From a virus, in the IMG/VR virus record IMGVR_UViG_3300046536_000202, positions 1-42,857 of that record: 42,857 nucleotides of DNA, one strand, 5' to 3'. Positions 979-42,765 of this stretch are shown in pieces. The notes below the pieces were generated by a model. The model was not told where the DNA came from, did no database searches, and was given only the letters and a program-made list of their open reading frames with translations. Every line of letters starts with the position of its first letter. Position 1 is the stretch's first letter. Both the position numbers and the translations under genes were made by a program.

Positions 979-1055
979 GGTGGCTGTAGCTCAGTTGGTA
1001 GAGTCCAGGATTGTGATTCCTGTTGTCGTGGGTTCGAGTCCCATCAGCCACCCCA
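979..1055 (+). tRNA. tRNA-His (GTG anticodon), prophage attachment target
   Basis: The sequence closely matches bacterial tRNA-His. It has the extra 5' G (-1) opposite C73, a 7-bp acceptor stem (GTGGCTG with CAGCCAC), a D arm with AGCTCAGTTGGTAGAG, anticodon stem CAGGA/TCCTG around TTGTGAT, the GGTTCGAGTCC T arm, and an encoded CCA. The 5' part is host DNA. Bases from 1008 onward belong to the att core and are repeated at 42712, so integration keeps the tRNA intact. Confidence 0.97.
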
Positions 1056-1061
1056 AGAATT
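1008..1061 (+). repeat. attL core: 54-bp direct repeat within tRNA-His
   Basis: These 54 bases are identical to 42712-42765. They start in the anticodon stem and end 6 nt past the CCA end. An integrase of the tyrosine recombinase family and this tRNA-embedded repeat together define the left prophage junction. Confidence 0.95.
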
Positions 1062-9200: not shown

Positions 9201-12189
9201 CGTCCGCCTCCAGCTCGGCGTCCGGGCGCTCCGGCTTCGGGTTCTCCGACTCCCAGTGCAGCATCTGGCGCTCGACCTCGTTGTCGATCAGGCGCTTGTT
9301 GCGGGTCATGAACTGACCCTTCTGCAGCCCCTTCTGCCCCGCCGCCGCTTCAGGCGACTGATCCCACATCACGCCCTTGACCTGCTCGCGCACCTCGGAC
9401 ACGCGCGCTGCGTGCTGCGCATCCCATTCCTTGCGTGCTTCCGCGTACGACGGATCGGTACCGCCCGGCCGGCGCAGGTAGGCCTGCGCCTGGCGCACCG
9501 GCTCGGCCTCGACCTCGCGCGTGACGTCGGCGCGGATCGCTTGCCGCTGATCGTCCGCCTTGGCCTGCAGCTCCTTGAGCGCGCGCGCCTTGGCGTTGCT
9601 GGCCCACTGCATGTCGCGCAGGCTACGCGCCGTCATTTCCGCGATCGCCTGCTCGGTCGCCTCCTTGCCGGACTCCTGGTACTCGGCGAACTCGCGCGGC
9701 GACGCGCCCTCGGGTGGCGCCTCGAGCGGGAAGTAGGCGCGCGCCTTTTCCGCTTGTGTGATCGCCTCCTCCGACGCCAGCATCCGGTCCATCACCTCGC
9801 GTACCTCGGGCGACAGGTCGACCTTCAAGTTGGTCAGCGAGCGGTAGATGTTGACCATCCATGCGCGGAAGCGAGAAAACATCGTCTGCAGCTCGAGCGT
9901 GGGAGCCTTACCCTCCATCAGGTAGCGCTCGAAGCCGCGCGCGAACTGCTCGTGCCCGGCCCGCTTTTCCTCGAGCGACTTACCGGACCAGTCCGCCAGG
10001 CGCTGTTCGGGCGTCTCGCCCTGCTCGCCAAACGACTTGAGCAGGGTATCGAAATCGGCCTTGATGCCCTCGGGCGCATCCTCGCGCGCCGCCATGTCGT
10101 GCATCGCCTCCAAGAAGAAGTGGCCGGACTCGTGCAGGTAGGTCGAGAGGTCTGCGTCCTTCAGCAGGCCGATGGTATGCGTGGCGGGCGCGAAGCTGCC
10201 GCGCTCGGCTTGCTGCAGCGCCTCCCCACCCGTCAGGTTGCTGGTCACCTTCAGCGGGTAGCGCTCGTACAGCTCACCCGGCGACAGGCCGGAACGCGCG
10301 GCCATCGTGCTGTAGAACTCGCGCGTCATGGCGGCATAGGCCTCGTTCACCGCCGGCTGGAACCGCCCGGCGCCTTCGAGCTCGGAAAGCACCTTGTCGT
10401 GCACCGCCTGCGCGTCGGCGTGGGTGGCGTCGTCGGCCTGCTTGTCGGCCAGTATCTTCGTCGCCAGCTGCTGCATCCCGTCCTGCTGGGACTCGATATG
10501 GGCCTGGCTCTGGGCATAGGTCATGCCGTCCGGCTCGACCTTCAGGTGGGGCAGCAGTGCCGTGTCAACCTTGCCGCCGGCGAGGTGGGTGGCATAGTCC
10601 TCCACCGGGATCCGGATGTCACCCTGGGTGTGCACGGCCTCGGGGAACTGGGCGGCCACGTCCGGCATTTGCGCGGCCAGCTGCTCGAGCGTCACGCCCG
10701 ACTGGTTCAGCACCTCGGCGAACTTGTTCGCATCGACGTAGACCTCGCGCAGCTGGCCGTCGTCGGCGGCGTCGCGCACGAACTGCTTGAAGGCTTCCGG
10801 GTCGCGCTGCCGGGTCTTGCTGGCGGCGGCCAGCTCGCCGAGCCCCTGCAGGGTTGCGATGCCATCCTGGGCCGCCTGCGCCTTGACCGCGTCCGCGAAG
10901 CCACGCTGCACGTCCGGGTGATCGACAAACCAGCCGCCAGCGGTACGGCCGGCGCCCTGCATCGTGAACAGCGCGTTCAGGCCGTAGCCGAACAGCTTGT
11001 CCTCGAGCGGCCGGTCATCCAGCGGGTGGGCGCCCGAAATGGCATCCTGCACGGCGCTGACGCCAACGGCCCGCCCCAGCCATTGGGCGATCGTGTTGTC
11101 GGGCAGGAGCTTGCCGGCCGCGCCGAACGTCGCACCGGTTGCCGCGCCGCTGACGGCGCCGTGGCCGATGCGCGCAGCCGCCTCGCCAGCCGTGTGCGAA
11201 TCAAGTACCGCACCGCCAGTCTCCTGCAGCGCGCTGGCAAGGCCAAGCGTGGCCGCCTGCTGCAGGACGTTCTTGCCCAGGCCCGTCAGCCACGCCTCGC
11301 CCGCTACCGGAGCAAGCGCGCCGGCGCCCGGGAGCGCGCCGACGATCGAACCGGCGACTTTGCCAGGGCCGAGAATGAAACCGCCCAGGCTGCCGGCGGC
11401 GCCAGCGGTGGAAGCCTGCCACGAGTGCGGGTTGACCGGTACGGTGGGCGAGACGACGCCGAACGTCGCCGCCTGGACGAAGCGCTCGGCCGCCATCTGC
11501 GGGACCTGCGACATGCCGCCGATCGCCTGCCGCGACGACTCCCAGGCGCGATTGTTCAGTGCATCGATCTGCGCCATCGTCGCATCGGGTGCCGGCCGTA
11601 GCGACGGATTGGCGGCGCGCGCGGCCAGGATCGCGTTGGCTTCGGCATCGCCCTGCGCCTGACGGCGCTGCGCCGCGGTTGGCTGGCCGGTGATGCCGGC
11701 CCACCAGTCGATCATCCGGTCACGCAGCGTTGGCGCTTGCTCCGGCAGCGCGACCAGAGTCTGGCCGCCGATCGGCGCCGGGGCGGCCGGGAGCGCCTTG
11801 ACGGCCTGCTCGACACCGGCCAGCGGCGCCACGTCGTCGTGCGACTTGGCGGCATTGCCCGGGTCGGTCATGTACTTGGCCAGCGTGGGGTAGTCGCTGA
11901 CCATCCTGTCCGCGTCCATCGACTTGAGCGCGGCCTGCTGCCGGACGGCGTCTGGCTGCGCCTGCACGGTCTCGACCGGCACGCCCACGTACTTGGCCAG
12001 GTGCTGGTATTGCGCCGCCTGGTCGGGGTTCTGGCCGACAGCGAACTGGATGTTGTTGCGGATCTGGACCGCGGCGCCCTGGGCGTCGTCGTGCATCACG
12101 GCGCCGGCGGCCGCGTCGAACGGGTTGGCCGGTTGCTGCTGCCCGGTGACCAGGTCAGACAGGCTGAGGTTGCTAACTTTATCGGGCAT
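6220..12189 (-). CDS. Giant internal virion (polyvalent-type) protein with zincin motif
   Basis: The 1989-residue product is the largest in the prophage and resembles the large ejection proteins of podoviruses. Near residue 685 it contains LSTYLHESGHFFLEAMHDMA, a zinc-metallopeptidase HExxH-type motif. Such a domain is known in phage polyvalent proteins that travel with the DNA. The N-terminal 200 residues and the long helical, Ala/Gln-rich middle (about 800-1250) are without clear match. The last 500 residues have a repeated hydrophobic and amphipathic character (for example AGKRYAFFGVAMLDMASAMP). ATG 12189 is chosen because it overlaps the end of the upstream gene by 11 nt. It is likely packaged under the portal and injected. 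The substrate of the peptidase is unknown. Confidence 0.8.
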   Translation of the reverse strand: MPDKVSNLSLSDLVTGQQQPANPFDAAAGAVMHDDAQGAAVQIRNNIQFAVGQNPDQAAQYQHLAKYVGVPVETVQAQPDAVRQQAALKSMDADRMVSDYPTLAKYMTDPGNAAKSHDDVAPLAGVEQAVKALPAAPAPIGGQTLVALPEQAPTLRDRMIDWWAGITGQPTAAQRRQAQGDAEANAILAARAANPSLRPAPDATMAQIDALNNRAWESSRQAIGGMSQVPQMAAERFVQAATFGVVSPTVPVNPHSWQASTAGAAGSLGGFILGPGKVAGSIVGALPGAGALAPVAGEAWLTGLGKNVLQQAATLGLASALQETGGAVLDSHTAGEAAARIGHGAVSGAATGATFGAAGKLLPDNTIAQWLGRAVGVSAVQDAISGAHPLDDRPLEDKLFGYGLNALFTMQGAGRTAGGWFVDHPDVQRGFADAVKAQAAQDGIATLQGLGELAAASKTRQRDPEAFKQFVRDAADDGQLREVYVDANKFAEVLNQSGVTLEQLAAQMPDVAAQFPEAVHTQGDIRIPVEDYATHLAGGKVDTALLPHLKVEPDGMTYAQSQAHIESQQDGMQQLATKILADKQADDATHADAQAVHDKVLSELEGAGRFQPAVNEAYAAMTREFYSTMAARSGLSPGELYERYPLKVTSNLTGGEALQQAERGSFAPATHTIGLLKDADLSTYLHESGHFFLEAMHDMAAREDAPEGIKADFDTLLKSFGEQGETPEQRLADWSGKSLEEKRAGHEQFARGFERYLMEGKAPTLELQTMFSRFRAWMVNIYRSLTNLKVDLSPEVREVMDRMLASEEAITQAEKARAYFPLEAPPEGASPREFAEYQESGKEATEQAIAEMTARSLRDMQWASNAKARALKELQAKADDQRQAIRADVTREVEAEPVRQAQAYLRRPGGTDPSYAEARKEWDAQHAARVSEVREQVKGVMWDQSPEAAAGQKGLQKGQFMTRNKRLIDNEVERQMLHWESENPKPERPDAELEADVIAEMFGFENGKAMRKAIADAGNMTEQIERLTDQRMLEQHGELVDPASIERAAEAAIHNEARARFTATALKMLSKTPTAPSTMLVQAAREAAEAAVAAKQLRDLRPAQYSAAEARANREALKLAPRDPAGAMQAQRAALLNNQLFKAANDAVAEAEALRIYFKKFDRASVAKQVGADYMERIQEILSNYELSARRPKKSDTSLQDWMQQQYERTGIMPAVSDAVMSQAKHWSSLTVEELRGLGDAIHSLDHIGRQQTQVILDGKRLDLDALVEEARQSLSGVEHTDPLDQKPHLQHAQGLSRISAKFLDLKSRLRSGDAALLKMEQLFQMFDAGGRAGLTDTSHGAFSKIFKSMADAESAERTLRSESVADLRALADKLKEANVRLNDSLSVGLPRPGRGTQWYREELLAAALNTGNAGNLKKLVQGYGWTEQQLMGELDKHLSAPEWEFVQGVWDAIGKHGPEIEGLQKRQTGVAPKMVEPRQVRTRHGQYQGGYYPVVYDAFQDRAVETKQARNADMLFENQWAKPTTSKGHTVERTGYVGPVMLSLGVISRHLDQVTHDLAWREPITEANKFLSDARIKDEIDQTYGKEYTKQLRPWLQALANDKVFNTSGDSAWENFYRKARTNVTIMGLGYRLSTMMIHGASALSTSVGEVGAKWMAKGVAQFAGIDRIQNAIDFVYERSPEMRNRMNEMDRNVSEAIHDITASESSFKSLSVAQKMVNAGKRYAFFGVAMLDMASAMPTWHAAYLKGMAPEAEGGHGMAEEAAIEYANRAVRNAHGGGGTKDLAAIQRDKGAVSMATMFYSFWNHMYNRQRDIVKGYANLPDSFRQGTGTQDFGRLLARSWWYFIVPQVIHAMLKPSPQQDDGHQLSSTLLHIAEEVGLGSVSGIPFIRDLANAAVNGRSYTVTPIESAGKAVVTAAQDAAKVAHGEPASPKAAKNAVQAAGYVYGLPLGQASSTGQFLWDVVDGKQDPQRLQDWFNGISHGDMKQH

Positions 12190-14182
12190 TCTTGGTTGTC
12201 CAGTAGGCCCGCAGGATCTGGTCGTCGGTCGGGCGCGTGTTGCCGCGCGCGGCGAAGGCGGCACGGATCGAGTTCTGCGATTCGCTCGGGATGTCGCCGA
12301 CCTTCATGCCGAGCAGCGACTGCTGCGAGGTGCCGGTCGACATGCCGAGGAAGGTGTTGCGGAAGGTGACGTTCTTGGCCATGGTCTGGTCCACGTAGTC
12401 CGAGACCTCCTGCGCCGTCATCTTCCGGCCGAGCTGCTGCTGCTGGGCGAAGATGCCATCGCTGACAAACTTCTGGATGCTGCCGACGCGCGACTTCTCG
12501 CCCAGGTCCTTCGGCGCCGGGTTAATGCCGATCGCCTCGAGGCGGCTGTTGAGGGCCGTGTTCAGGGCCGGCCGGTTGATGCTGCCGATGCCCGCTTCGG
12601 CCTTCCCGCTCACATACTCCTGCCGCAGGTCGGCGATCCGCTTGCCGTCGAGCTGCGAGAAATTGGTGATCGCGAAGTGGTTGAAGGTCGCGTCGGACAT
12701 CTTCGCCAGCTCCTCCGGGTGCGCCACCGCATCCAGGTAGGCCGGCATGTTCGTCGTGTTCTCGCCCTTGGCCAGCTTCTTGGAAAAGTCGATCAGGTTG
12801 TCGTACTTGTCGGGCGCGTACTGCGTCACCGCCTGGAGGATGTCAGGGGGAAGCGCCGCCAGATTGCCGTTGTTTTTCACCAGCCCTTGCTGAGCAGCCA
12901 GCATGGCGTTCTCGCCCTTGGCCTTGCGGTCATTGGTGAAGTCGGTGTACATGCGCGTGCCTTCGGCCAGCGCGGCCTGCAGCAGCTTGGGGTCGGGGTT
13001 ATCGCCCAGTTTCTTGCGGATCGCATCGTGCACATCCTGCTGCGAAGGTATTTTTGCGAGCGCAGGCGCGTTGTAGGCAGTTACCGCCGCCGTCAATTTC
13101 GCCTGGTCGGCCGGAGAGAGCTTGGTCGTCCAGTCGCCGTCCTTGCCAGCGTCCTTGATCGCTACGTCAACCACATCCTCGTCGATCGCGGTGGCTCCCA
13201 GCACCTTCGCCGAATCCCCCGCGTACTTGGTCACCAGCTTATTGACGTAGGCTGCCCCGCCGCCGCCTTTCGTGTTATCGGTCACGCCAGCTGCTTCCAG
13301 TATCCGGCTTGTGGCCGATGGCTGGGCGCTGCGCTGTACATCGGTCATGGCATCCATGGCAGTACTGGTCGCGGTGCGCGCCCGCGCGTCGGCCTTAACG
13401 ATCCCGTTCACCTTGAGCAGGTCGTCCGCCGTCATCTCGCCCTTCTTGGCGTTGATGTAGGTCAGCGCATAGTCGGGGTTGTTGTTCTCGAGTGCCGCTT
13501 GGATCACGCCCGCATGGATTGCGCTCGTGGTCTGCTGAATGTTCCCTGAAACGAGATTGGCAGGGGTGCCGTTGATCCGCCCAGCATTCCACACCGCCGC
13601 CTTCGCGCTCTCGACCTGCTGCGCGATCTGGTCCGGGTCGTCCCAGTTCCGCTTCGCCGCATCAGCGGCGAGCTTGATGGTGCCCTCCTGCGTCTCCAGC
13701 CCGAAGGTGCGGAATTCCTGCAGCATGTGCCGCTGCACGTCACCGCCGAACTGCGTGGCCAGCGCGGCCGCCTGCTCGCCGAACACGCGGCGCTGGGCGT
13801 CATTGCCGAGATTCGTGGCGACGTTGTTGATGGTGTCCTGCAGCTGTTCGCCGTACTGCTGCGTCAACGGGCGCCCCAGCGGGTCGGGATTGAGCGCAGC
13901 GGCGCCTTTCTTGTTCAGGTAGCCATTTTCCGGGTCGTACGTCAGCGCGAGCTGCTGCTGGCGCACCGTGTTGAGCGCAGCGTCGACGCGCACCTGGTTG
14001 GCCATCGACTGCGCGTAGACTTCCTCCTGGGTCAGCAGCGCGCCGGTGTCCTGCAGCGCCGCGCCGGCATTGCCCATCTGGCGCGCGCTGGCCTGGTTGT
14101 CGACCGGGGCCGGCTGGCGGTACGGCGCCGGGCCGCCGGATGGCAGCACCTGCGGGGTGTCGTAGGTCGGGACGGTAGGCAT
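12179..14182 (-). CDS. Internal virion protein (gp15-like position)
   Basis: The 667-residue product is rich in Ala, Gln and Asn and predicted mostly helical, with no membrane segment. By position, between a gp14-like small protein and the giant protein, it corresponds to the middle ejection protein of T7-like and BPP-1-like podoviruses. A region around residues 290-370 (GGAAYVNKLVTKYAGDSAKVLGATAIDEDVV) vaguely recalls the structural repeat of transglycosylase-bearing virion proteins, but I see no catalytic motif. The ATG at 14182 overlaps the stop of the preceding gene by one base (TGATG). The open frame extends upstream only as an overlap with that gene. Confidence 0.75.
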   Translation of the reverse strand: MPTVPTYDTPQVLPSGGPAPYRQPAPVDNQASARQMGNAGAALQDTGALLTQEEVYAQSMANQVRVDAALNTVRQQQLALTYDPENGYLNKKGAAALNPDPLGRPLTQQYGEQLQDTINNVATNLGNDAQRRVFGEQAAALATQFGGDVQRHMLQEFRTFGLETQEGTIKLAADAAKRNWDDPDQIAQQVESAKAAVWNAGRINGTPANLVSGNIQQTTSAIHAGVIQAALENNNPDYALTYINAKKGEMTADDLLKVNGIVKADARARTATSTAMDAMTDVQRSAQPSATSRILEAAGVTDNTKGGGGAAYVNKLVTKYAGDSAKVLGATAIDEDVVDVAIKDAGKDGDWTTKLSPADQAKLTAAVTAYNAPALAKIPSQQDVHDAIRKKLGDNPDPKLLQAALAEGTRMYTDFTNDRKAKGENAMLAAQQGLVKNNGNLAALPPDILQAVTQYAPDKYDNLIDFSKKLAKGENTTNMPAYLDAVAHPEELAKMSDATFNHFAITNFSQLDGKRIADLRQEYVSGKAEAGIGSINRPALNTALNSRLEAIGINPAPKDLGEKSRVGSIQKFVSDGIFAQQQQLGRKMTAQEVSDYVDQTMAKNVTFRNTFLGMSTGTSQQSLLGMKVGDIPSESQNSIRAAFAARGNTRPTDDQILRAYWTTKNAR

Positions 14183-26237: not shown

Positions 26238-27317
26238 TCACGAGCATTCGCTGCCGCTTGGCGGCGGGGCGAGGTGTTCGCCACTTTCGCGCCGCTCGAA
26301 TCCGATTCGCTCGCCGATCCGGTCAGCACCGCGCGCGACCGTGCCGAGGTTCTTCTCCAGGTACCCCATCGTCGTCATCGGGTGCTTGTGGCGCATGACT
26401 GCCTGGATGTTCTGGACCGGCACGCCGTCCTCCGACAACAGGGTGGCGAAGGTGCCGCGCAGGCGGTGCGGCGTGATGCCCTTGGTCGCGCACACCGCGT
26501 TGGCGGCGCGCATGGCGCTGCGTGCATACCCGGCCGGCAGCTGCGAGCCGTCGGCGCGTGCGGCGATCAGGCCATGGTCGCGGCGCAGCGGCTGCAGGTA
26601 TTCGACCAGCCAGCGCGGCAGCGGTACCGGCTCGGCCTCGCGCCCTTTGGTGATGCCCGGCGTGTAGGTGGAGCGCTGCCAGTCGATCCATTCCCAGTGC
26701 GCAGTAGCCGACTCGGACTCACGCAGGCCGAGGCCGAACATCAGGCGCACGCCGGTGCCGACGGCCTGGCTGCGTGCTGCCTTGTCGATCGCGGCGAACC
26801 AGGTGCGCGCGACATCGATGGGCAAGATCGCGCGCGGGCGCTTTTGCAGCTTCAGCATCTGCACCTTCCAAGGCAAGGCCGGGATGATCTCGCGCTTGAC
26901 CGCCCACATCGCGATCAGCTTGAGCACGCGCAGCCAGTGGTTCGCGCTGGCTGGCTTGTGCGTCTCCAGGTGCGTGTTGCGCGCCAGCTCGACGTCGGTG
27001 GTGGTGACCTGGTTGATCGGCAGTTCGCCCAGGTCGTACAGGTGCAGCCGCCCGAACGTTTCGACGCTGCGGATGTGTGCACGGCTGCGCACCGGTGGCT
27101 GGTGGATTCGCAGCCATTCGGCGATCAACTCGCGCAGCGTCGGTACCGGCTGGCCGCCGTTGGCCCGCACGACGGCGGCGTCGAATGCCTTCTGCGCGAT
27201 CATCTCGGCGCGGGGCCGTTTCGTTTCACGCGTGCTGCGCTGGATGCGTACACCGGCGACTTGAAAGCGGTAGTGCCAGACCTTACAGGTGCCAACACGG
27301 AACAGGCGGTAGCTCAA
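26238..27317 (-). CDS. Second tyrosine recombinase, within the early operon
   Basis: The 359-residue product has the full catalytic set of the family: GLGLRESESATAHW (Arg I), a Lys-bearing beta-hairpin (GITKGREAEP), ITPHRLRGTFATLL (His-x-x-Arg), VMRHKHPMTTMGYLEKN (His/Lys and the Tyr nucleophile). It starts with TTG, which overlaps the stop of the P-like gene (TTGA). It is far from both att sites and divergent from the main integrase. It could resolve phage dimers, serve another site, or be a relic of an older integration module. Confidence 0.88.
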   Translation of the reverse strand: MSYRLFRVGTCKVWHYRFQVAGVRIQRSTRETKRPRAEMIAQKAFDAAVVRANGGQPVPTLRELIAEWLRIHQPPVRSRAHIRSVETFGRLHLYDLGELPINQVTTTDVELARNTHLETHKPASANHWLRVLKLIAMWAVKREIIPALPWKVQMLKLQKRPRAILPIDVARTWFAAIDKAARSQAVGTGVRLMFGLGLRESESATAHWEWIDWQRSTYTPGITKGREAEPVPLPRWLVEYLQPLRRDHGLIAARADGSQLPAGYARSAMRAANAVCATKGITPHRLRGTFATLLSEDGVPVQNIQAVMRHKHPMTTMGYLEKNLGTVARGADRIGERIGFERRESGEHLAPPPSGSECS

Positions 27318-35031: not shown

Positions 35032-35841
35032 ATGTCCACCGAGACCATCAGCGCAGCACCCGAAGCAGCACCCACGAAAGCACCGGCCAAGACGATCCTG
35101 AACCCGACCGCCGCGTGGCCGTTCCCGACCGCACGCGTCGCGCAGCACTTGTTCGTCACCGTCCCCGAGACCACGCTGCCGAACGGCACGGTGGTCCCGG
35201 CCTTCCAGGTCGGCCAGTACCACTGCGCGAAGGGTGAAGACGGCAAGGTCGCGATCAGCGCCACCGCCAAGCCGTGGCTCGAGATCAACTATGCGGACGC
35301 GCGCCAGGCCTGCACCGACGCCGGCTACGCGCTGCTGACCGAGCTGCAGGCGCTGGCGATCGCGTTCAACGTGGCGCAGCAGGACGCCAACTGGAGCGGC
35401 GGCAAGGTCGGCGAAGGCAAGCTGCTGCAGGGCCTGCACCTGGACCCGGACAACGTGGACGAAGCCTATGCCGGCGACTACGTGTCGCCCGATCCGGCCG
35501 AGCGCCGCACCTTCGTGCTGTCGAACGGCCAGACCATCTTCGACGCGGCCGGCAACGTGTACAGCTGGATCTTCGACGACGTCCAGGGCGACGAGAACGG
35601 GCTGGTGGCGCGCGCCTTCGCCGCCGACTCGCCGTCGATCACCACGGCGCCCTACCCTTCCCTCGAGCGCGGCATGGGCTGGTATCCGAAGGCTGGCAGC
35701 GATTGGTCGGGCTATGCGCTCGTCCGCGGCGGCTGCTGGTGCTCGGACGACCGTGCCGGCGTGTTCCTTCTCGACCACGACTGGCCCGTCGACGCCTACG
35801 ACCACGTGGGTTTCCGCTGCACCAAACCCGTGGGTCTCTGA
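35032..35841 (+). CDS. DGR target protein 1 (C-type lectin / FGE-sulfatase fold)
   Basis: The 269-residue product has a Pro/Ala/Thr-rich N-terminus without signal peptide, then an FGE-sulfatase-like domain: FQVGQYHC, ALLTELQALAIAFNVAQQDANW, VGEGKLLQGLH, LSNGQTIFDAAGNVYSWIFDDVQGDENG. It ends in the variable repeat (about residues 225-263: GYALVRGGCWCSDDRAGVF ... HVGFRCTK). The repeat codes for the exposed ligand-binding part in known C-type lectin DGR targets. ATG 35032 is preceded by GGGAGAA. It is paralogous to target 2 from about residue 38 on. What it binds, and whether it is in the virion, is unknown. Confidence 0.9.
   Translation: MSTETISAAPEAAPTKAPAKTILNPTAAWPFPTARVAQHLFVTVPETTLPNGTVVPAFQVGQYHCAKGEDGKVAISATAKPWLEINYADARQACTDAGYALLTELQALAIAFNVAQQDANWSGGKVGEGKLLQGLHLDPDNVDEAYAGDYVSPDPAERRTFVLSNGQTIFDAAGNVYSWIFDDVQGDENGLVARAFAADSPSITTAPYPSLERGMGWYPKAGSDWSGYALVRGGCWCSDDRAGVFLLDHDWPVDAYDHVGFRCTKPVGL
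35703..35819 (+). repeat. DGR variable repeat VR1
   Basis: 117 bp aligned without gaps to the template repeat at 38341-38457. There are 16 mismatches and all are at template adenines (26 in the template). The bordering bases differ at non-adenine positions, which marks the ends. Confidence 0.95.
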
Positions 35842-35852
35842 TCACTGGTCCC

Positions 35853-35875
35853 GGGTCGCCGCGAAGCGGTGGCCC
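35853..35875 (+). other. Hairpin downstream of VR1
   Basis: A 10-bp stem (two wobble pairs) with loop GAA lies 12 nt past the target 1 stop codon. The same element follows VR2 with a base change that keeps pairing. In BPP-1 a comparable hairpin behind VR aids retrohoming. Confidence 0.65.
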
Positions 35876-35893
35876 TTTCACACAGGAGCAACG

Positions 35894-36157
35894 ATGCCAA
35901 CGATCTACCAGGGCAAGCCGCCCGAAAGCCAAACGTGGCTGGAAATCCCAGCCGAGTTCGTTCCCGAATTCAGGAAGCTCGGCCACGAGATCCGCGAGCT
36001 GGTGCTGCGTGAGGATGCAGATCGCAGCAGCCTGGTGTCGTTCAACCTCGGCGTCGAGAAGGCCGCTGCGCTGGCCGAGTCGCACAACGCGGCCACCGAG
36101 GCGATCGCGAAGCTGATCCGCGCGTTGAAAAAGAACCAGCCAATGGTGTCGGCATGA
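35894..36157 (+). CDS. Small helical protein between the DGR targets
   Basis: The 87-residue product (PTIYQGKPPESQTWLEIPAEFVPEFRKLGHEIRELVLREDADRSSLVSFNLGVEKAAALAESHNAATEAIAKLIRALK) looks mostly helical. A CAGGAG site precedes the ATG. It could be a chaperone or partner of the target proteins by position, but I recognise no family. Confidence 0.6.
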   Translation: MPTIYQGKPPESQTWLEIPAEFVPEFRKLGHEIRELVLREDADRSSLVSFNLGVEKAAALAESHNAATEAIAKLIRALKKNQPMVSA

Positions 36158-36363
36158 TTCGCGCCTACCGCCGCCTGCGCGAGCGCGTGCGGCGCGCGGT
36201 CAAGCCGTACGTGCTGCTGATGAATGCATGGCGCTTCAAGCTCAGCGAAGATCACCTGGCGTATCTGAATGCCCAGCGCGAGGGTGCGAACGATGCACTC
36301 AAGCGTGAGCATTTGCGTCAGGTGCGGCTGCGCATCAAGCGTGACCAGATTGCGAAGTGGTGA
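36154..36363 (+). CDS. Small basic helical protein
   Basis: The 69-residue product is Arg-rich (IRAYRRLRERVRRAVKPYVLLMNAWRFKLSEDHLAYLNAQREGANDALKREHLRQVRLRIKRDQ). It overlaps the preceding gene by ATGA. Function unknown. Confidence 0.58.
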   Translation: MIRAYRRLRERVRRAVKPYVLLMNAWRFKLSEDHLAYLNAQREGANDALKREHLRQVRLRIKRDQIAKW

Positions 36364-36382
36364 ACTCAAACGAGGGGAAAAA

Positions 36383-36493
36383 ATGAAAACCATCCGCTTC
36401 ATCATGAGCCAGTACCGCCTGTCGTGCCGGGCCGGGTTCGGCCGGCGCAAGTCGCTCCGTCGCGCTGTCAACATCTACGTCAGCGGCTTTTAA
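36383..36493 (+). CDS. 36-residue basic peptide gene
   Basis: A short frame (KTIRFIMSQYRLSCRAGFGRRKSLRRAVNIYVSGF) follows a GAGGGG site and ends 15 bp before target 2. Support is the ribosome-binding site and position; no family recognised. Confidence 0.4.
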   Translation: MKTIRFIMSQYRLSCRAGFGRRKSLRRAVNIYVSGF

Positions 36494-36508
36494 TCAGAAA
36501 GAACAAAA

Positions 36509-37402
36509 ATGAAAATCGAACTCACCCAAGAGGATACCTTTACCGCCCGCGCCGGCGCCCACGCCATTCACGGCCTGCGCCGCACCGCACAGTGGGAGGG
36601 CCTGAGCAAGCTGGTCGACCAGTCCGAGCGCTACCTGATCGTCTCCGACGATGACGGCGCCGTGGTGAAAGGCACGCCCGCGCTGCTCAACGTGCTGCAC
36701 CTGACCACCCGCACCGACCTGTTCGTCACGGTGCCCGAAACGACCCTGCCGAATGGCCAAGTCGTGCCGTCGTTCCAGGTCGGCCAGTACCACTGCTGCG
36801 CCAAGGACGACGGGATCGCCATCGACCCGGCGCTGGCGCCGCTGGTGAACGTCAACTACCGCACCGCAAAGGCGCGCTGCGAAGCGGCCGGCTACAAGCT
36901 GATCACCGAACTGCAATGCCTGGCGATCGCCACCAACATCGCGCAGCAGGACATCAACTGGACGAGCGGCGCGGTCGGCGAAGGCAGTCTCTACCAGGGC
37001 ATCCACAAAGAAAATGTCCGCCGCGCGCAACCGGGCAGCTACGAGCCCGAGGATCCGCTCGAGCGCCGCTGGCACCAGCTGTCGAATGGCGAGCGCATCT
37101 ACGACTTCGCCGGCAACGTTTTCACCTGGGTGCACGACGACGTGCAAGGCGATGCCGACGGCCTGGTCAGCGGCACGATCGCGAAGGACTCCCCATCGCT
37201 GACGTGCGCGCCTTTCCCGAGCAGGGAGAAAGGCGTTGGGTATATCCCGGGCGGCCCGCTGCAATGGTCGGGCTATGCGCTCCTCCGCGGCGGCTGCTGG
37301 TGCTCGGACGACCGTGCCGGCGTGTTCCATCTCGGCCACGGCTGGCCCGACGGCGCCGGCGGCAACGTGGGTTTCCGCTGCACCAAACCCGTGGGTCTCT
37401 GA
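36509..37402 (+). CDS. DGR target protein 2 (C-type lectin / FGE-sulfatase fold)
   Basis: The 297-residue product has a distinct N-terminal domain of about 68 residues (KIELTQEDTFTARAGAHAIHGLRR ... LIVSDDDGAVVKGTP) and then the same FGE-like body as target 1: FVTVPETTLPNG, FQVGQYHCC, LITELQCLAIATNIAQQDINW, LSNGERIYDFAGNVFTWVHDDVQGDADG. VR2 covers about residues 253-291. The different N-terminus suggests that the two targets attach the same variable head to different partners. No signal peptide or membrane segment. Confidence 0.9.
   Translation: MKIELTQEDTFTARAGAHAIHGLRRTAQWEGLSKLVDQSERYLIVSDDDGAVVKGTPALLNVLHLTTRTDLFVTVPETTLPNGQVVPSFQVGQYHCCAKDDGIAIDPALAPLVNVNYRTAKARCEAAGYKLITELQCLAIATNIAQQDINWTSGAVGEGSLYQGIHKENVRRAQPGSYEPEDPLERRWHQLSNGERIYDFAGNVFTWVHDDVQGDADGLVSGTIAKDSPSLTCAPFPSREKGVGYIPGGPLQWSGYALLRGGCWCSDDRAGVFHLGHGWPDGAGGNVGFRCTKPVGL
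37264..37380 (+). repeat. DGR variable repeat VR2
   Basis: 117 bp aligned without gaps to the template repeat. There are 17 mismatches, all at template adenines. In the 12 positions changed in both VRs, 10 carry the same new base as VR1. Confidence 0.95.
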
Positions 37403-37414
37403 TCCCTGGTCTCG

Positions 37415-37436
37415 GGTCGCCGCGTAAGCGGTGACC
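37415..37436 (+). other. Hairpin downstream of VR2
   Basis: A 9-bp stem (GGTCGCCGC with GCGGTGACC, one wobble) with loop GTAA lies 12 nt past the target 2 stop codon. The surrounding 55 or so non-coding bases are nearly the same as those after VR1. Confidence 0.65.
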
Positions 37437-37464
37437 TTCCACAACAATAAACAGAACGAGAATC

Positions 37465-38319
37465 ATGCAACAGGCAGCAACACAGCATCCCACCGATGAC
37501 GAGCTGAACAAGTTCGCCATCAGCAAGTTCAAGGGCATCGACGTCGGGCTGGGCCAAGCCGACCCGATGACGGGCATCGCCAAGAAGCTCGAGCAGCAGT
37601 ATCCGAACCACCTGATCCTGATCCAGGCCGGCAAGTTCCTGCACGGCTTCGACCGCACCGCGCACGCGCTCGGCACCCTGAAGGGCTACCAGCTCAAGCT
37701 GATCGGCACCACCGACGAGCCACACCTGCGTGTCGGCTTCCCGGCCGGTAACTTCAAGAGCCGCTTGTGGTCGATGGTCGAGGAGTTCGGCATCCCCTAC
37801 GTGGTGGCGCTGGGCACGCTCGCGCAGGGCCATACCGTCTACGTGTCGGACCAGTCCAGCCAGCAGTCGCCCGTGCTCGCGGCCGTAACGCCGGAGATCG
37901 TCGCCCAGGTGATCGAGGATCTGCGCCAGCGTGGCAACCTCAACAAAGCAGCGGCCAAGCAGGTGCTGGCCAACCCGGACAGCTCGGGCTTCAAGCTGAA
38001 ACAGCAGGCCCAGGCGCTCGACACGCAGCTGCTGCAGGACATCATCAGGATGCCGCGCGACGTGCGCGTAACCTACGGCGAGAACCTGCGTGCATGCATG
38101 GCACGGCTGATGCGCGCCGTGTTCGCCTTCGGCCTGGATGTGAACCGGACCGCCACCCTGCACGCGATCTCCGCCGACGTCGACCTCCTCAAGCACTACC
38201 TGGCACAGGCCCAACGGCTAAGCATGATCAAGTTCGCATTCGAGCACCGAGTGGGCTTAGCCGTTGAGCTTGGGCGGCTGGTCGGCGGGCTGATCCGTTC
38301 CGAAAAGGCCGCATCATGA
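37465..38319 (+). CDS. avd: DGR accessory protein: MutS domain I-like plus Avd-like fusion
   Basis: The 284-residue product has two parts. Residues 35-118 (IAKKLEQQYPNHLILIQAGKF, then GYQLKLIGTTDEPHLRVGFP and FGIPYVVALG) resemble MutS domain I, the mismatch-sensing domain. Where MutS has the F-x-E motif, this protein has F58-L-H60. Residues 183-280 (QLLQDIIRMPRDVRVTYGENL, then KHYLAQAQRLSMIKFAFEH and ELGRLVGGLIRSE) match the four-helix-bundle Avd family, which binds the RT and the template RNA in known DGRs. The gene lies between target 2 and the template repeat, the usual avd place, and its stop overlaps the ATG of the RT frame (ATGA). MutS-like DGR accessory proteins have been reported, as I recall. 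A fusion with Avd I do not recall. Confidence 0.82.
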   Translation: MQQAATQHPTDDELNKFAISKFKGIDVGLGQADPMTGIAKKLEQQYPNHLILIQAGKFLHGFDRTAHALGTLKGYQLKLIGTTDEPHLRVGFPAGNFKSRLWSMVEEFGIPYVVALGTLAQGHTVYVSDQSSQQSPVLAAVTPEIVAQVIEDLRQRGNLNKAAAKQVLANPDSSGFKLKQQAQALDTQLLQDIIRMPRDVRVTYGENLRACMARLMRAVFAFGLDVNRTATLHAISADVDLLKHYLAQAQRLSMIKFAFEHRVGLAVELGRLVGGLIRSEKAAS

Positions 38320-39647
38320 TCAACGAAGGGGGATTTCTGGAAGGTCGAGCAATGCGCTCATCCGCGGCGGCTACTGGTACTCGGACGACAATGCCGGCGT
38401 GTTCAATCTCGACAACGACTGGCCCGACAACGCCAACGACAACGTGGGTTTCCGCTGACCCAAAAATTACATGCCTGGACGCTCAGCCCTGCGCTGGCGG
38501 GAGGTCAATTCTTGGTCGAAATCCTCCTGGGGCATCCCCAAAAGCAGGGCGTCAAGCCACACCGAGAACCGCGCCGGGGCCTACGGGCGCCGGCGCGGGA
38601 CGTGGCAGCGACAGCGCTTTCACTACCCTGACGGGCCTGCCCAACCTGTACGCCTGCTGGCTGAAGGCTAAGCGCAGCAAGTCGCACTGCCCGCGCGTGC
38701 AGCGCTTCGACGCGGACCCGCTGCACTACCTGCTGACGATCCAGCAGCGCCTGCGCGCGCGCCAGTTCACCTTCGGCCCGTACAAGGCGTTCACCGTGCG
38801 CGAGAAGAAGTTCCGCCAGGTGATCGACGCCCCGATGAAGGACCGCGTGGTGCACTGGATGCTGTACCAGTACCTGCTGCCGATCTGGCAGCCCCGCTTT
38901 ATCCACGATACCTACGGCAACCTGCCGGGGCGCGGCACGCACGCGGCCGTCGATCGCCTGGCCGGGTTCTGCCGCGGCGCCAGCGCTCGATGGGCGCTGC
39001 AGCTAGACATCTCGAAGTACTTCTATTCGGTCAGCCATGAACTGCTGAAGGCGCGCGCGCTGCGCTACGTGGGCGACCACGCCCTGCGCCAGCTGATCGT
39101 CGCACTGATCGATTCGTTCCGCACCGATGGCAGCTACGACCACCTGTTCGACGACGAGACACCCTACCGGCGCACCGCGGCCAAGGGCATGCCGATCGGG
39201 AACCTGAGCAGCCAGCTGTTCGCGAACATCTTCCTGGCCGACTTCGATCACTGGGTGAAGGGCGGCCTGCGCGTGCGCCGCTACATCCGCTACGTCGATG
39301 ACCTGGTGGTGATCGGCGAGACGTGCGCCGAGCTGGTGGCGGTGAAAGACGCGATCGTGGCGAAGCTGGCCGCCGACGGCCTGGTGGTCCACCCTCGCAA
39401 GATGCGCATCGCCCCGGTGTCGGCCGGCGTGCCATTCCTCGGGTACGTCGTCTGGTCGAACCACGTATCGGCCGGAGCTTACGTGCGCGGCCGGTACATC
39501 CGGCGCCTGCGCGAGCACGAGGCGGGCGGCTATGACCGCAGCGAGACCTTGCAAGCCTACCGGGCAATCCTTTCGCACACCGGGCCCACCAACACGCGCA
39601 GGGGCGCCGCGCGCAGCCAAACTCGACACACGGAGACCATGCTATGA
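38316..39647 (+). CDS. DGR reverse transcriptase
   Basis: The conserved part (about residues 104-430 of this frame) has the DGR RT pattern: LTGLPNLYACWLKAKRSK at its start, FIHDTYGNLPGRGTHAAV, motif A LQLDISKYFYS with Asp231, IGNLSSQ at 294-300 (the DGR-type variant of the RT motif 4), and YVDD at 326-329. It copies the template RNA into adenine-mutated cDNA. The only ATGs in this frame are at 38316, overlapping the avd stop, and 38352, both before or in the template repeat. Either RT is translated through TR, which stays open in this frame, or a non-ATG start nearer 38620 is used. The first 100 residues look non-conserved. Confidence 0.93.
   Translation: MINEGGFLEGRAMRSSAAATGTRTTMPACSISTTTGPTTPTTTWVSADPKITCLDAQPCAGGRSILGRNPPGASPKAGRQATPRTAPGPTGAGAGRGSDSAFTTLTGLPNLYACWLKAKRSKSHCPRVQRFDADPLHYLLTIQQRLRARQFTFGPYKAFTVREKKFRQVIDAPMKDRVVHWMLYQYLLPIWQPRFIHDTYGNLPGRGTHAAVDRLAGFCRGASARWALQLDISKYFYSVSHELLKARALRYVGDHALRQLIVALIDSFRTDGSYDHLFDDETPYRRTAAKGMPIGNLSSQLFANIFLADFDHWVKGGLRVRRYIRYVDDLVVIGETCAELVAVKDAIVAKLAADGLVVHPRKMRIAPVSAGVPFLGYVVWSNHVSAGAYVRGRYIRRLREHEAGGYDRSETLQAYRAILSHTGPTNTRRGAARSQTRHTETML
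38341..38457 (+). repeat. DGR template repeat (TR)
   Basis: 117 bp with 26 adenines, many in AAC/AAT codons of the VR reading frame (N at each diversified site). In that frame it ends with a TGA stop just past the repeat, and where the VRs have Cys. Mismatches to both VRs occur only at its adenines. It lies between the avd-like gene and the conserved RT region. The 160 bp or so that follow, before the conserved RT part, may be the structured RNA spacer. Confidence 0.96.
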
Positions 39648-39796
39648 ACTTCTGGACGATTTGCCTGATCTTCTGCCGTATGTGGACCACGGCACCGACA
39701 TGCAGCGGCAGCTGCAACCAGGGCCGCCAGCCGTGCGACTGTAGGAACACTGCAAGCCCGTGCACATCTGGACGGACGGGAGAAACGGAACAATGA
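39644..39796 (+). CDS. 50-residue Cys-rich peptide coupled to RT
   Basis: A short frame has ATGA overlaps at both ends: its ATG with the RT stop and its stop with the next ATG. It encodes a peptide with seven Cys (for example FWTICLIFC, APTCSGSC, PCDC). Double coupling is the main support. No family recognised. It might bind metal or be a coupling leader. Confidence 0.5.
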   Translation: MNFWTICLIFCRMWTTAPTCSGSCNQGRQPCDCRNTASPCTSGRTGETEQ

Positions 39797-40023
39797 TTTA
39801 CCTTTCCGCCCAAGAACTCGCGGACTTGATCGGGTGTGCCCCGAACAGCTTCGCGTGTATGCGCCGCTACCTCACACGCAACAACTGGCCGTTCGCGCCG
39901 ACCCTGCGTGGCTTCCCTCACGTCAGTCGAGCATATTATGATGCCAGGATGAGCGGCGCGACCAGCGCACCCGCGCAGACGCAGCCCGAAGAAGAACCCG
40001 ATTTCAGCATGTTCCAGAAATGA
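39793..40023 (+). CDS. DUF4224-type protein next to integrase
   Basis: The 76-residue product begins IYLSAQELADLIGCAPNSFACMRRYLTRNNWPFAPTLRGFPHVSRAYYDA. This resembles DUF4224, a small domain encoded just before many phage integrases, possibly an excision or integration cofactor. It overlaps the integrase gene (ATGA). Confidence 0.72.
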   Translation: MIYLSAQELADLIGCAPNSFACMRRYLTRNNWPFAPTLRGFPHVSRAYYDARMSGATSAPAQTQPEEEPDFSMFQK

Positions 40024-41120
40024 GCGGACGACGTAAAGCCCCAGACGGCATGCCGTTTCGCCTCTATGAGCGCATCGGCAAATTCAAGGTCAGCTATACC
40101 TACAAGCTGCCGGACGGGACGTGCGCATTCTGGCTGTCGGCGCCGGCCAGCGACAAGGAAGGGGTGGCCCAGATCAAGGCCGAGGCCATCCAGCGCGCCA
40201 ACGAACTGAACGGCGTGGTGCCGGAGGCGAGCGGGGAAACCGAAGAACTGTTCCGTGAATACTTCGCCTGGCAGCGCCGCCTGCCCAGGGAGAGCGAGGA
40301 ACGGAAAGCCGACAACACGCTCAAGGAAAACGAACGCGAGCAGAAGCCGCTCCTGCGCAGCTTCGGCAAGGTCAAGCCGGAGAAGATCAAGCCCGTGCAC
40401 ATCTACCGCTACCTGGACGGGCGCGCGGCCGAAGGCGCGCCGGCCAAGGCGAACAAGGAGGTGGCGCTGCTATCAGCGGTATTCGAATTCGGGCGCCGGC
40501 GCGGCAGGATCGAGACGAATCCCTGCCGCGGCATCAAGTACAACAAGACCAGGCCGAAGACCAGTTATGTGGACGCCGCAGCGCGCGGCCTGGTAATGCG
40601 CGTGGCGCGCGAGCGCGGCGGGATGTACCTGGTGGTGGCGCTCTGCCTGCGCGTGGCGTACCTGACTGTCAGCCGCCCGGACGAGACGCGTTCGATGATG
40701 CGGCAGGCGGTCGAGTCAGATGGCGTGCGGGTCCCGGTGGGCAAGCGCAAGAAGGGCCAAGCGCAGAAGTACAAGCTAATCGAGTGGTCGCCGGACCTGC
40801 GCGCCGCGATCGACGAGGCGCTGTCGCTGCAGCGCACCGCGAGCATGTGCGTGTTCGGCAATAGCGACGGCCAGCCGTACACCATCAGCGGATTCAATAC
40901 CACCCTGCGCCGGCTGATGGCGCACTGCGAGAAGAAGGCAGCAGAGGAAGGCATCGCGTTCACCAGGTTCACGCTGGCCGACATGCGCCCGGCGGCGGTG
41001 ACCGACCGGGTGGACGACGGCGACGAGCACATCACCAATGCCACTGGCCACAACAGCGAGCGCATGGTCAAGCAGGTCTATGACCGCCGCAAGGTCAAGA
41101 AGGCGCGCGCTACGGAATAG
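40020..41120 (+). CDS. int: Phage integrase (tyrosine recombinase)
   Basis: The 366-residue product has an N-terminal arm-binding-like part, a core-binding helical domain (about 95-165) and a catalytic domain with CLRVAYLTVSRPDETRSM (Arg I), VGKRKKGQAQKYKL (Lys), FTLADMRPAAVTD (Arg II; the usual His or Lys before the Asp is Ala), ATGHNSERMVKQVYDRR (His and Tyr). It lies 1.6 kb from attR and is the last gene of the DGR operon. It is the likely enzyme for tRNA-His integration. Confidence 0.92.
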   Translation: MSGRRKAPDGMPFRLYERIGKFKVSYTYKLPDGTCAFWLSAPASDKEGVAQIKAEAIQRANELNGVVPEASGETEELFREYFAWQRRLPRESEERKADNTLKENEREQKPLLRSFGKVKPEKIKPVHIYRYLDGRAAEGAPAKANKEVALLSAVFEFGRRRGRIETNPCRGIKYNKTRPKTSYVDAAARGLVMRVARERGGMYLVVALCLRVAYLTVSRPDETRSMMRQAVESDGVRVPVGKRKKGQAQKYKLIEWSPDLRAAIDEALSLQRTASMCVFGNSDGQPYTISGFNTTLRRLMAHCEKKAAEEGIAFTRFTLADMRPAAVTDRVDDGDEHITNATGHNSERMVKQVYDRRKVKKARATE

Positions 41121-41232: not shown

Positions 41233-41724
41233 ATGGCAATCGACGCATACCTGCAGCTAGGAGAGATCAAGGGGGAGTCGGCGGACAGTGCGCACCAGGG
41301 CTGGATCGAGTGCGAGTCGGTCAACTGGTCGATACGGCAGCCGAAGAGCGCGACCTCATCGACGGCGGGCGGCCACACGGCCGAGCGCGCCGAACTCTCG
41401 GACGTCACCTTCCACAAGATCTGCGACCTGGCATCGCCGCTCCTGGCGCAGCACTGCGCGATGGGCAAGACAATCCCGAAGGCGAAGTTTGAGTTCTACC
41501 GCGCCGACGGCAACGGTACCCGCGTCAAATATTACGAGGTTGAGCTCGAGAACGTCATGATCGGCCACGTGGCGCAAGGCGTCGCGGCTGGCGGTATGAA
41601 TGACAGCATCGGCTTGAAGTTCTCGAAAGTGAAGTGGCGGTACACCCAGCAGAAGATCGCAGGCGGCGCCGGCGGCAACACCGCGGGCGGGTGGGACTTG
41701 TCGACCAATCGGGTAGCGGCATGA
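41233..41724 (+). CDS. hcp: Hcp1-family type VI secretion tube protein
   Basis: The 163-residue product matches Hcp from end to end: AIDAYLQLGEIKGESADSAHQGWIE, SATSSTAGGHTAERAELSDVTFHKICDLASPLL, VKYYEVELENVMIG and the C-terminal KVKWRYTQQKIAGGAGGN, then GGWDLSTNR. Hcp hexamers form the inner tube of the type VI secretion system and carry small effectors. There are no other type VI structural genes here. The start follows GGAGG. It is coupled to the next gene by ATGA. The 110 bp upstream hold no clear promoter. Confidence 0.93.
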   Translation: MAIDAYLQLGEIKGESADSAHQGWIECESVNWSIRQPKSATSSTAGGHTAERAELSDVTFHKICDLASPLLAQHCAMGKTIPKAKFEFYRADGNGTRVKYYEVELENVMIGHVAQGVAAGGMNDSIGLKFSKVKWRYTQQKIAGGAGGNTAGGWDLSTNRVAA

Positions 41725-42110
41725 GGCGCGCGCTGCTTGTGGCCGCGCTGGCGCTGGCGCTAACGGCGCAGGCTCAGGATGATGAGCACCGCGAACTGCC
41801 ACCGATCCCCACGGTTGCACCGTATCTGACCGGCGCGGAGCTGGTGCGCAAGCTGGCGAGCCCGCAAGAGGCGCATGACGCCGAGCTGTATATCAAGGGC
41901 GCGCACGACGCCACCGAGCGCAAGCTGTGGTGCCTGCGCGACCGCAGCTGGAAGGCACCGCCCAAGATGCGCTCGCCCGATCTACAGGCGTTCGCGCTCA
42001 ACGGGCTGCGCGCCTTGCCGCCCGCCCAACTGAAGCGCAATGCGGCGGATCTGCTGCTGGAATTATGGCAGGACAAATGGCCATGCCCGCCCGATGGGTG
42101 CTGCCCGTGA
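41721..42110 (+). CDS. Rap1a/Tai-type immunity protein
   Basis: The 129-residue product has a signal peptide (RRALLVAALALALTAQAQ). The mature part has YLTGAELVRKL, AELYIKGAHDATERKLWCL, ALNGLRALPPAQLKRNAADLLLELWQDKWPC, the layout of the periplasmic Rap1a/Tai immunity family with its paired Cys. It would protect the cell from the amidase encoded next. Overlaps on both sides (ATGA with hcp, GTGA with the effector) support a single module. Confidence 0.75.
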   Translation: MRRALLVAALALALTAQAQDDEHRELPPIPTVAPYLTGAELVRKLASPQEAHDAELYIKGAHDATERKLWCLRDRSWKAPPKMRSPDLQAFALNGLRALPPAQLKRNAADLLLELWQDKWPCPPDGCCP

Positions 42111-42577
42111 GTGCGCCGCTGTTTACCCTCCTGAAAGTCCATCACATGGGCGCACGCTTTACCGCGCCGCAGGTGCTGGACGCCATCGGTCACCCCGAAC
42201 TGGCGCTCGATCCGGCCTGGGGCAATACCTGCGCAATCCGGATGAGCGTGGCCCTGGTCTGGGCCGGGGTCAAGATCCGCACAGGCCCGGCCCGGCTGCG
42301 CCTCAATGCCGGGCCGCTCAAGGGCGAGCAGATCGAGCCGAGCCAGAAAGTGCTGTCCGAGTTCCTGGCGCATGAAATCGGCAAGCCAGAACGGTACCGG
42401 AGTGGACCGGATGCAAACAACGCGGTTGCCTGGCGCCACGGCATCGTGTCGTTCTTCAGCCTGCACGGCTCCAGTCAGGGCCATATTGACCTGGTATCGG
42501 TTCAGGACTGGCCGCAGCATTGCAGCCTGTCGTGCTACTGGGATTGCCGGGAGGTATGGTTTTGGCCGCTGCACTAG
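42107..42577 (+). CDS. Tae4-like type VI amidase effector
   Basis: The 156-residue product has NTCAIRMSVALVWAGV with the likely catalytic Cys42 and GIVSFFSLHGSSQGHIDLV with the likely catalytic His126, plus a C-terminal Cys group (QHCSLSCYWDC). This is the Tae4 layout of papain-like amidases that cut peptidoglycan stem peptides. I prefer the GTG at 42107, overlapping the immunity stop as GTGA, because it gives the normal family start. ATGs at 42065-42083 in the same frame are alternatives. No signal peptide, as expected for an Hcp-delivered effector. Confidence 0.8.
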   Translation: MSAPLFTLLKVHHMGARFTAPQVLDAIGHPELALDPAWGNTCAIRMSVALVWAGVKIRTGPARLRLNAGPLKGEQIEPSQKVLSEFLAHEIGKPERYRSGPDANNAVAWRHGIVSFFSLHGSSQGHIDLVSVQDWPQHCSLSCYWDCREVWFWPLH

Positions 42578-42711: not shown

Positions 42712-42765
42712 GGATTGTGATTCCTGTTGTCGTGGGTTCGAGTCCCATCAGCCACCCCAAGAATT
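42712..42765 (+). repeat. attR core: 54-bp direct repeat
   Basis: Identical to 1008-1061. It is the displaced 3' part of the host tRNA-His gene and marks the right prophage end. Confidence 0.95.

Follow-up and report, generated by a model that had tools for sequence, protein, structure and literature searches.

A diversity-generating retroelement in the early region of a tRNA-His prophage, likely to vary two lectin-like proteins from a template that is probably also translated

What might a temperate phage vary with a diversity-generating retroelement (DGR) that lies beside its integrase gene rather than among its tail genes? The question is raised by the IMG/VR virus entry IMGVR_UViG_3300046536_000202, whose whole stretch of 42,857 bp is the window analysed here. 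On its plus strand, the window holds one template repeat (TR), two target genes that each end in a variable repeat (VR), an accessory gene and a reverse transcriptase (RT) gene. We consider it likely that this is a working DGR in the early region of a prophage, that the TR and the spacer behind it also serve as a translated leader, and that two lectin-like targets are diversified. The open reading frames (ORFs) and repeats concerned are the following.

35032..35841, plus strand: target 1, 269 aa, with an FGE-sulfatase/C-type-lectin-like domain and VR1 at the C-terminus
35703..35819, plus strand: VR1, 16 mismatches to the TR, at adenines only
35853..35875, plus strand: hairpin 3' of VR1, 10-bp stem and GAA loop
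36509..37402, plus strand: target 2, 297 aa, with a different N-terminal beta domain, the same FGE-like domain and VR2 at the C-terminus
37264..37380, plus strand: VR2, 17 mismatches to the TR, at adenines only
37414..37437, plus strand: hairpin 3' of VR2, 10-bp stem and GTAA loop
37465..38319, plus strand: accessory protein, 284 aa, a MutS domain I-like half predicted to be fused to an Avd half
38316..39647, plus strand: RT ORF, running from an ATG through TR and spacer into the RT, with the RT domain from about 38628
38341..38457, plus strand: TR, 117 nt with 26 adenines
38458..38606, plus strand: spacer, a putative structured RNA that shows covariation and has no stop in the RT frame

The window system is a DGR: in addition to A-only TR/VR pairs, it has an RT and an accessory protein of the Avd type, and each VR is followed by a hairpin. 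Gapless alignment reproduced the mismatch counts of the initial annotation, which had recognised the DGR signature from the repeats. All 16 mismatches of VR1 and all 17 of VR2 (33/33 together) face one of the 26 template adenines and none falls elsewhere, with hypergeometric chances of 2.6e-13 and 2.6e-14, respectively, below 1e-12 for each VR. The two VRs differ from each other at 11 sites, every one at a template A. Homology to the TR stops at 38457, and the VRs form the 3' ends of two ORFs that are both complete, in agreement with the proposal that one template serves two entire genes with different N-termini. The RT carries the motifs GMPIGNLSSQ (GxxxSQ type) and YVDD and matches PF00078 and phrog_1423, the PHROG family of DGR-type RTs. 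Hairpins after the VR are known from phage DGRs (PMC3240598). In the window, the best stem downstream of the TR has 6 bp, versus 10 bp after both VRs. Across the family, most VRs precede a GC-rich hairpin of 9-14 bp, though for some it reaches only 6-8 bp; for a few a stem of at least 6 bp was looked for and not found, and the best stem downstream of eleven TRs has 6 bp.

Is the element active? Scanning IMG/VR with the TR skeleton yielded no closer copies of the window phage, and VR turnover was therefore followed in relatives only. These comprise 58 RT relatives from viral contigs and four bacterial genome loci found via the accessory gene, in Duganella, Pseudoduganella and a betaproteobacterial metagenome-assembled genome; it is from these relatives that we infer the host of the window phage. 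The loci are related to each other, so that counts across them are not counts of independent events, which tells against taking the figures below at face value. A-biased VRs occur in nearly all loci that hold the region, and many have two or three. Two contigs from different metagenome records (L005 and L007) are identical over 16,593 bp except at 8 sites, and all 8 lie opposite a template A in the 3' half of VR1, a pattern consistent with a single recent retrohoming event whose crossover lay within the VR. In a second pair (L002/L003), both VRs differ at 15 of the 26 A and at none of the 92 other sites, while the TR is identical and the difference elsewhere is 3.7%; in a third (L043/L045), all three VRs have turned over. 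VR differences at non-adenine positions between close relatives had been named beforehand as the outcome that would speak against the initial annotation: across seven locus pairs, 158 differences fall at template A and 4 elsewhere. This turnover shows that, in the relatives, one template serves several targets, and the sequence comparisons indicate that the DGR family is active. The window phage is known from one copy, which leaves room for its own DGR being a recently inactivated fossil. We regard this as very improbable, given that all ORFs of the window are intact, that neither VR has a single non-A mismatch and that close relatives have undergone recent A-only change. A rearranged cassette was also seen in one relative (L032, 5574-7827), where the TR region and a long preceding stretch are duplicated near-identically, a 1184-nt match with 16 A-only mismatches that represents a tandem copy inside the cassette.

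What do the targets look like? PF03781 scores above its cut-off in both, and the VR is the end of that FGE-sulfatase domain. For target 2, the AlphaFold model resembles FGE enzymes and TaqVP, a variable protein of a DGR, with moderate TM-scores of about 0.4. Related targets have the FGE-like domain in common, behind at least three kinds of N-terminus: no extra domain, a GLYxKFxVxRTDG domain, or an IELxxExTFTxR domain, the type found in target 2. The genomic setting in which these proteins occur is defined by a few further features.

1008..1061, strand not applicable: left 54-bp direct repeat (attachment site), over the 3' part of the tRNA-His gene at 980-1055
3466-6180, minus strand: tailspike, matching PHROG tail spike
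39760..40023, plus strand: DUF4224 protein upstream of the integrase, Pfam match below cut-off
40020..41120, plus strand: tyrosine integrase, downstream of the DUF4224 protein
42712..42765, strand not applicable: right 54-bp direct repeat, the second copy

The 54-bp direct repeats are the prophage boundaries. Along the plus strand the order is target 1, small ORFs, target 2, accessory gene, TR, RT, DUF4224-like gene and integrase. The minus strand carries structural genes at 3-25 kb, replication genes at 27-29 kb and a Cro-like helix-turn-helix protein at 31.8-32.1 kb. The DGR thus sits on the plus strand between the Cro-like gene and the integrase, the position of lambda's left early operon. 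Both the placement beside the integrase and the presence of a separate tailspike had been pointed out earlier, and both hold. Among relatives, the integrase lies 0.3-9 kb downstream of the RT in 22 of the 25 records with an integrase match. Some have recE/YqaJ, recT-like or rdgC genes upstream of the DGR; RecT was considered as a constant partner and dropped, since Pfam RecT matched 2 and YqaJ 9 of 28 records.

Four relatives (L009, L014, L015 and L016) encode a second RT together with a stand-alone Avd; these second cassettes (L085, L084, L083 and L082, respectively) are on the same contigs as the early ones. Where the neighbours were scanned (L009 and L016), they are tail-fibre, baseplate or virion genes. 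An A-only TR/VR pair accompanies the second cassette in L014 and L009; in L016 one can be recognised by eye, some of its differences lying outside template A, and in L015 a pair was looked for and none was found. Within one phage, the early and the tail-side RT have 28-33% identity; the 31 early RTs tested fall into a single clade (support 100/100).

These observations bear on what the targets do. They could be virion receptor-binding proteins in an unusual location, with the DGR switching host tropism as in BPP-1. Most known phage DGR targets are indeed tail proteins, the FGE/C-type-lectin fold is common to them and to the window targets, and PHROG 2889 matches both window targets as well as a DGR target in a relative that is a tail fibre; inspection by eye reveals no signal peptide in the targets, which is also what a virion protein would show. 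However, the targets lie between repressor and integrase, on the strand opposite to the structural genes, and not within a tail module as in a tail-switching DGR of the BPP-1 type. The window also has its own tailspike, and in four relatives another RT-Avd cassette adjoins the virion genes. As the tail is served by its own DGR in some relatives, the early targets probably do something else. We therefore favour an early, non-tail role for the targets, which would presumably be expressed early, and consider a receptor-binding role unlikely, though the most serious of the alternatives weighed here.

The accessory protein is, on its predicted structure, a fusion of MutS domain I and Avd. In Foldseek comparisons the N-terminal half of the model matches MutS domain I (1nne/1ewq, E 5e-4 to 9e-4) and the C-terminal half matches the Avd of BPP-1 (4dwl/8ub7). 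The latter half also has a PHROG Avd match, with Pfam bAvd below cut-off, while Pfam MutS_I matches 4 of the 41 family members with E up to 0.01. Structure was needed, as a PDB-sequence profile search with the accessory alignment gave nothing useful. The Phe-X-Glu mismatch wedge is not preserved: the MutS motif, GDFYE, aligns by eye with GKFLH, and at this position the family, again by eye, retains Phe or Trp, with Glu replaced by His or Gln. Neither the accessory protein nor target 2 had a match in 50,697 phage records, so that there is no deposited phage of the family from which an annotation could be read. Bacterial genomes yielded little more: among 295 genomes sampled from the family to which Duganella BJB476 belongs, two have the accessory gene, that strain included, and the model of the spacer RNA described below matched 1 of 398 genomes of the phylum (BJB476), which makes this DGR family rare in sequenced hosts. 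A related arrangement is the MSL accessory (Pfam MutS_I; PMC10053308, citing an earlier survey), which likewise has MutS domain I in a DGR accessory gene. In the window protein this domain is clearly fused to Avd.

How is the template organised? The 149-nt spacer between the TR and the RT domain folds into six predicted helices with 98.2% of cells paired. There are 150 two-sided changes, whereas shuffles give 39 ± 6 and slid controls no more than 36, the structure having been derived from the same alignment, which favours it in this count. A covariance model finds the spacer in the held-out loci L018, L091, L041 and L042 and, cut off, in L028; it has no match in the tail-side cassettes. The model's antisense matches to Magia (16.9 bits) and BPP-1 (10.1 bits) are weak and were set aside, and Rfam recognised only the tRNA in the window. 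In phage Cruim01 (L097), a misc_RNA annotated as 'RT-15' lies just upstream of the TR (2705-2897) and may be a DGR RNA element located on the opposite flank of the TR.

The same segment is open in the RT frame. The first ATG, at 38316, overlaps the accessory stop codon as ATGA; between the TR and the RT domain the window frame was searched for ATG, GTG and TTG and has none, ATGs being present only before or inside the TR. All 55 of the 55 loci keep the leader frame free of stops across TR and spacer for 95 codons or more. The ATG stands 141 bases ahead of the TR end in 52 of them, and 51 show the ATGA overlap with the accessory stop; the frame was also open in the four held-out spacer loci checked. 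Among 37 spacers, there is no stop in the RT frame and there are 45 and 31 in the two other frames, with about 6.6 open loci expected by shuffling. Local frame-shifting indels in the spacer are compensated, such that its total length is constant modulo 3 in 43 of 43 aligned sequences. An open leader frame with compensated indels, over a spacer folded with covariation, suggests that the template RNA is probably both a structured RNA and a translated leader.

In most loci the leader continues into the RT, and in eight relatives and the held-out L041 into unrelated ORFs, here called passengers. They encode an N6/N4 methylase (L036), a phage Dam (L038), a D12 methylase (L045), a PAPS reductase (L043, and again L041), a PAPS-reductase/NinC-like protein (L050, by BLAST), an H-NS C-terminal domain (L020) and unknown products (L029 and L051); in the eight relatives the RT has its own ATG. 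All nine are joined in frame at one sharp junction at the spacer end. The 291-nt leader is 97-99% identical among L036, L043, L045, L035 and L037, and past a single point identity is down to 20-39%. At the junction itself, the majority of passengers have no start codon. The long gaps between TR and RT in these loci match no curated intron or RNA family, as an Rfam scan of six of them returned nothing.

The open frame could nevertheless be passive, with the RT starting at an unrecognised codon after the TR and the passengers initiated internally. In such GC-rich DNA, frames open by chance (10 and 15 of the 37 spacers are open in the two other frames), and some relatives have ATG or GTG codons between TR and RT. 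Several further points weigh against a translated leader, which is itself deduced from sequence. The frame of BPP-1 is likewise open through the TR although brt has its own start, the L029 passenger has an ATG one codon after the junction, and that of L038 has an internal ATG a few codons inside it, where its homologue starts. Selection at the codon level is weak in the spacer (dN/dS-like values of 0.46-0.58, compared with 0.10-0.24 for the first codons of the RT), which would be expected of a spacer that is also constrained by RNA structure. Passive opening, however, sits poorly with 55 open frames out of 55, a conserved ATG overlapping the accessory stop and indels that restore the frame. 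Moreover, in the passengers of L043, L045 and L050 no start codon precedes the first conserved motif, and their stand-alone homologues begin within two codons of the junction. Among control DGRs, a stop separates TR and RT start in five other phage systems and in the L009 tail cassette; BPP-1 and Lagaffe are open through the TR with a start codon after it, and in Cruim01 and Magia the TR overlaps the RT ORF. Overall, we judge a passive frame improbable and retain translation of the leader as the better account.

Several of these traits are known in outline from other systems, namely multi-target DGRs, a TR overlapping the RT ORF and the MSL accessory (PMC3521204, PMC6642488, PMC10743442, PMC10053308). 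BPP-1 (mtd-avd-TR-brt) has the same order of target, Avd-type gene, TR, spacer and RT, A-only mutagenesis, a hairpin after the VR and a tRNA-His attachment site. It differs in its one tail target, its stand-alone Avd, a brt start after the TR and an RT about 30% identical to that of the window. One template with two targets has already been described (PMC3521204, PMC6642488, PMC10743442): about 28.6% of DGRs are multi-target (PMC6642488), and examples are the tentaclin phages nd4 and nd12, in which one TR serves two C-type-lectin targets (PMC10743442). Those targets are described as phage receptor-binding proteins, unlike the window cassette with its early, integrase-side location and fused accessory gene. 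A TR overlapping the RT ORF is found in DiGReF structural group 3 (PMC3521204) and in Cruim01 and Magia, where only 4 and 21 nt, respectively, separate the TR from the start of the RT match. In the window family, the overlap is a conserved leader that stays open, with its indels compensated, the spacer RNA covaries, and the genes that follow are exchangeable. DGR-type RT genes near an integrase or XerC gene were also noted in phages Magia (L100) and LPPA56 (L101); Magia has an annotated lectin-fold target, and its TR overlaps the RT ORF.

What goes beyond the initial annotation is the MutS-I/Avd fusion, the early-region site combined with a second, tail-side cassette in four relatives, the open leader frame through the TR and the covarying spacer RNA; the FGE/C-type-lectin fold of the targets had been missed as well. 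In a limited literature search, which is no proof of absence, we came across neither a translated template leader with exchangeable passengers nor a phage that has one DGR in its early region and another for its tail.

In the mechanism that we propose, the DGR occupies the repressor-to-integrase region, of the early-left type, of a tRNA-His prophage. The RT and the MutS-I/Avd fusion protein would bind an RNA made of the TR and the folded spacer, and the RT would copy the TR with errors at A. The cDNA would then be substituted for VR1 or VR2, next to the hairpin that follows each, and in this way the C-type-lectin-like face of both proteins would be varied. The TR-spacer would also be translated as the N-terminal leader of the following gene, the RT here and other genes in relatives. 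What our data show is the sequence signature, the turnover of VRs between close relatives, covariation in the RNA, a conserved reading frame and passengers joined to it in frame; the biochemical steps are borrowed from BPP-1 and would apply by analogy.

Elsewhere in the window, a type VI secretion effector-immunity module occupies the plus-strand stretch between the integrase and the right attachment site (41233-42577), with genes for Hcp (PF05638), a Tae4 amidase (PF14113) and an immunity protein of the Rap1a type. As the right direct repeat lies beyond the Hcp/Tae4 genes (41.2-42.6 kb), they are prophage cargo and not host flank. On the minus strand, a second integrase-like protein (phrog_1; 26241-27317) is encoded between terminase and helicase-loader genes, and the structural region includes a 2014-aa protein (6223-12264) whose sole match is phrog_9880, of unknown function.

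For the family as a whole, we give an even chance to the following reading. In this distinct RT clade of temperate-phage DGRs, TR and spacer would act together as template for mutagenesis, as structured RNA and as a translated leader that is joined in frame to the following gene (RT, DNA methyltransferases, PAPS reductases and others), and the element would diversify early non-tail proteins, in some relatives beside a second, tail DGR. The leader junction would offer a natural site for in-frame gene swaps that leave the retroelement undisturbed, a translated template would place an unexpected constraint on the DGR RNA, and a natural MutS-I/Avd fusion may give a lead on how mismatches between cDNA and VR are handled. 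If true, this would separate phage DGRs from tail-fibre switching, with a temperate phage keeping mutable binding proteins among its early genes, and would make what else phages need to vary a testable question.

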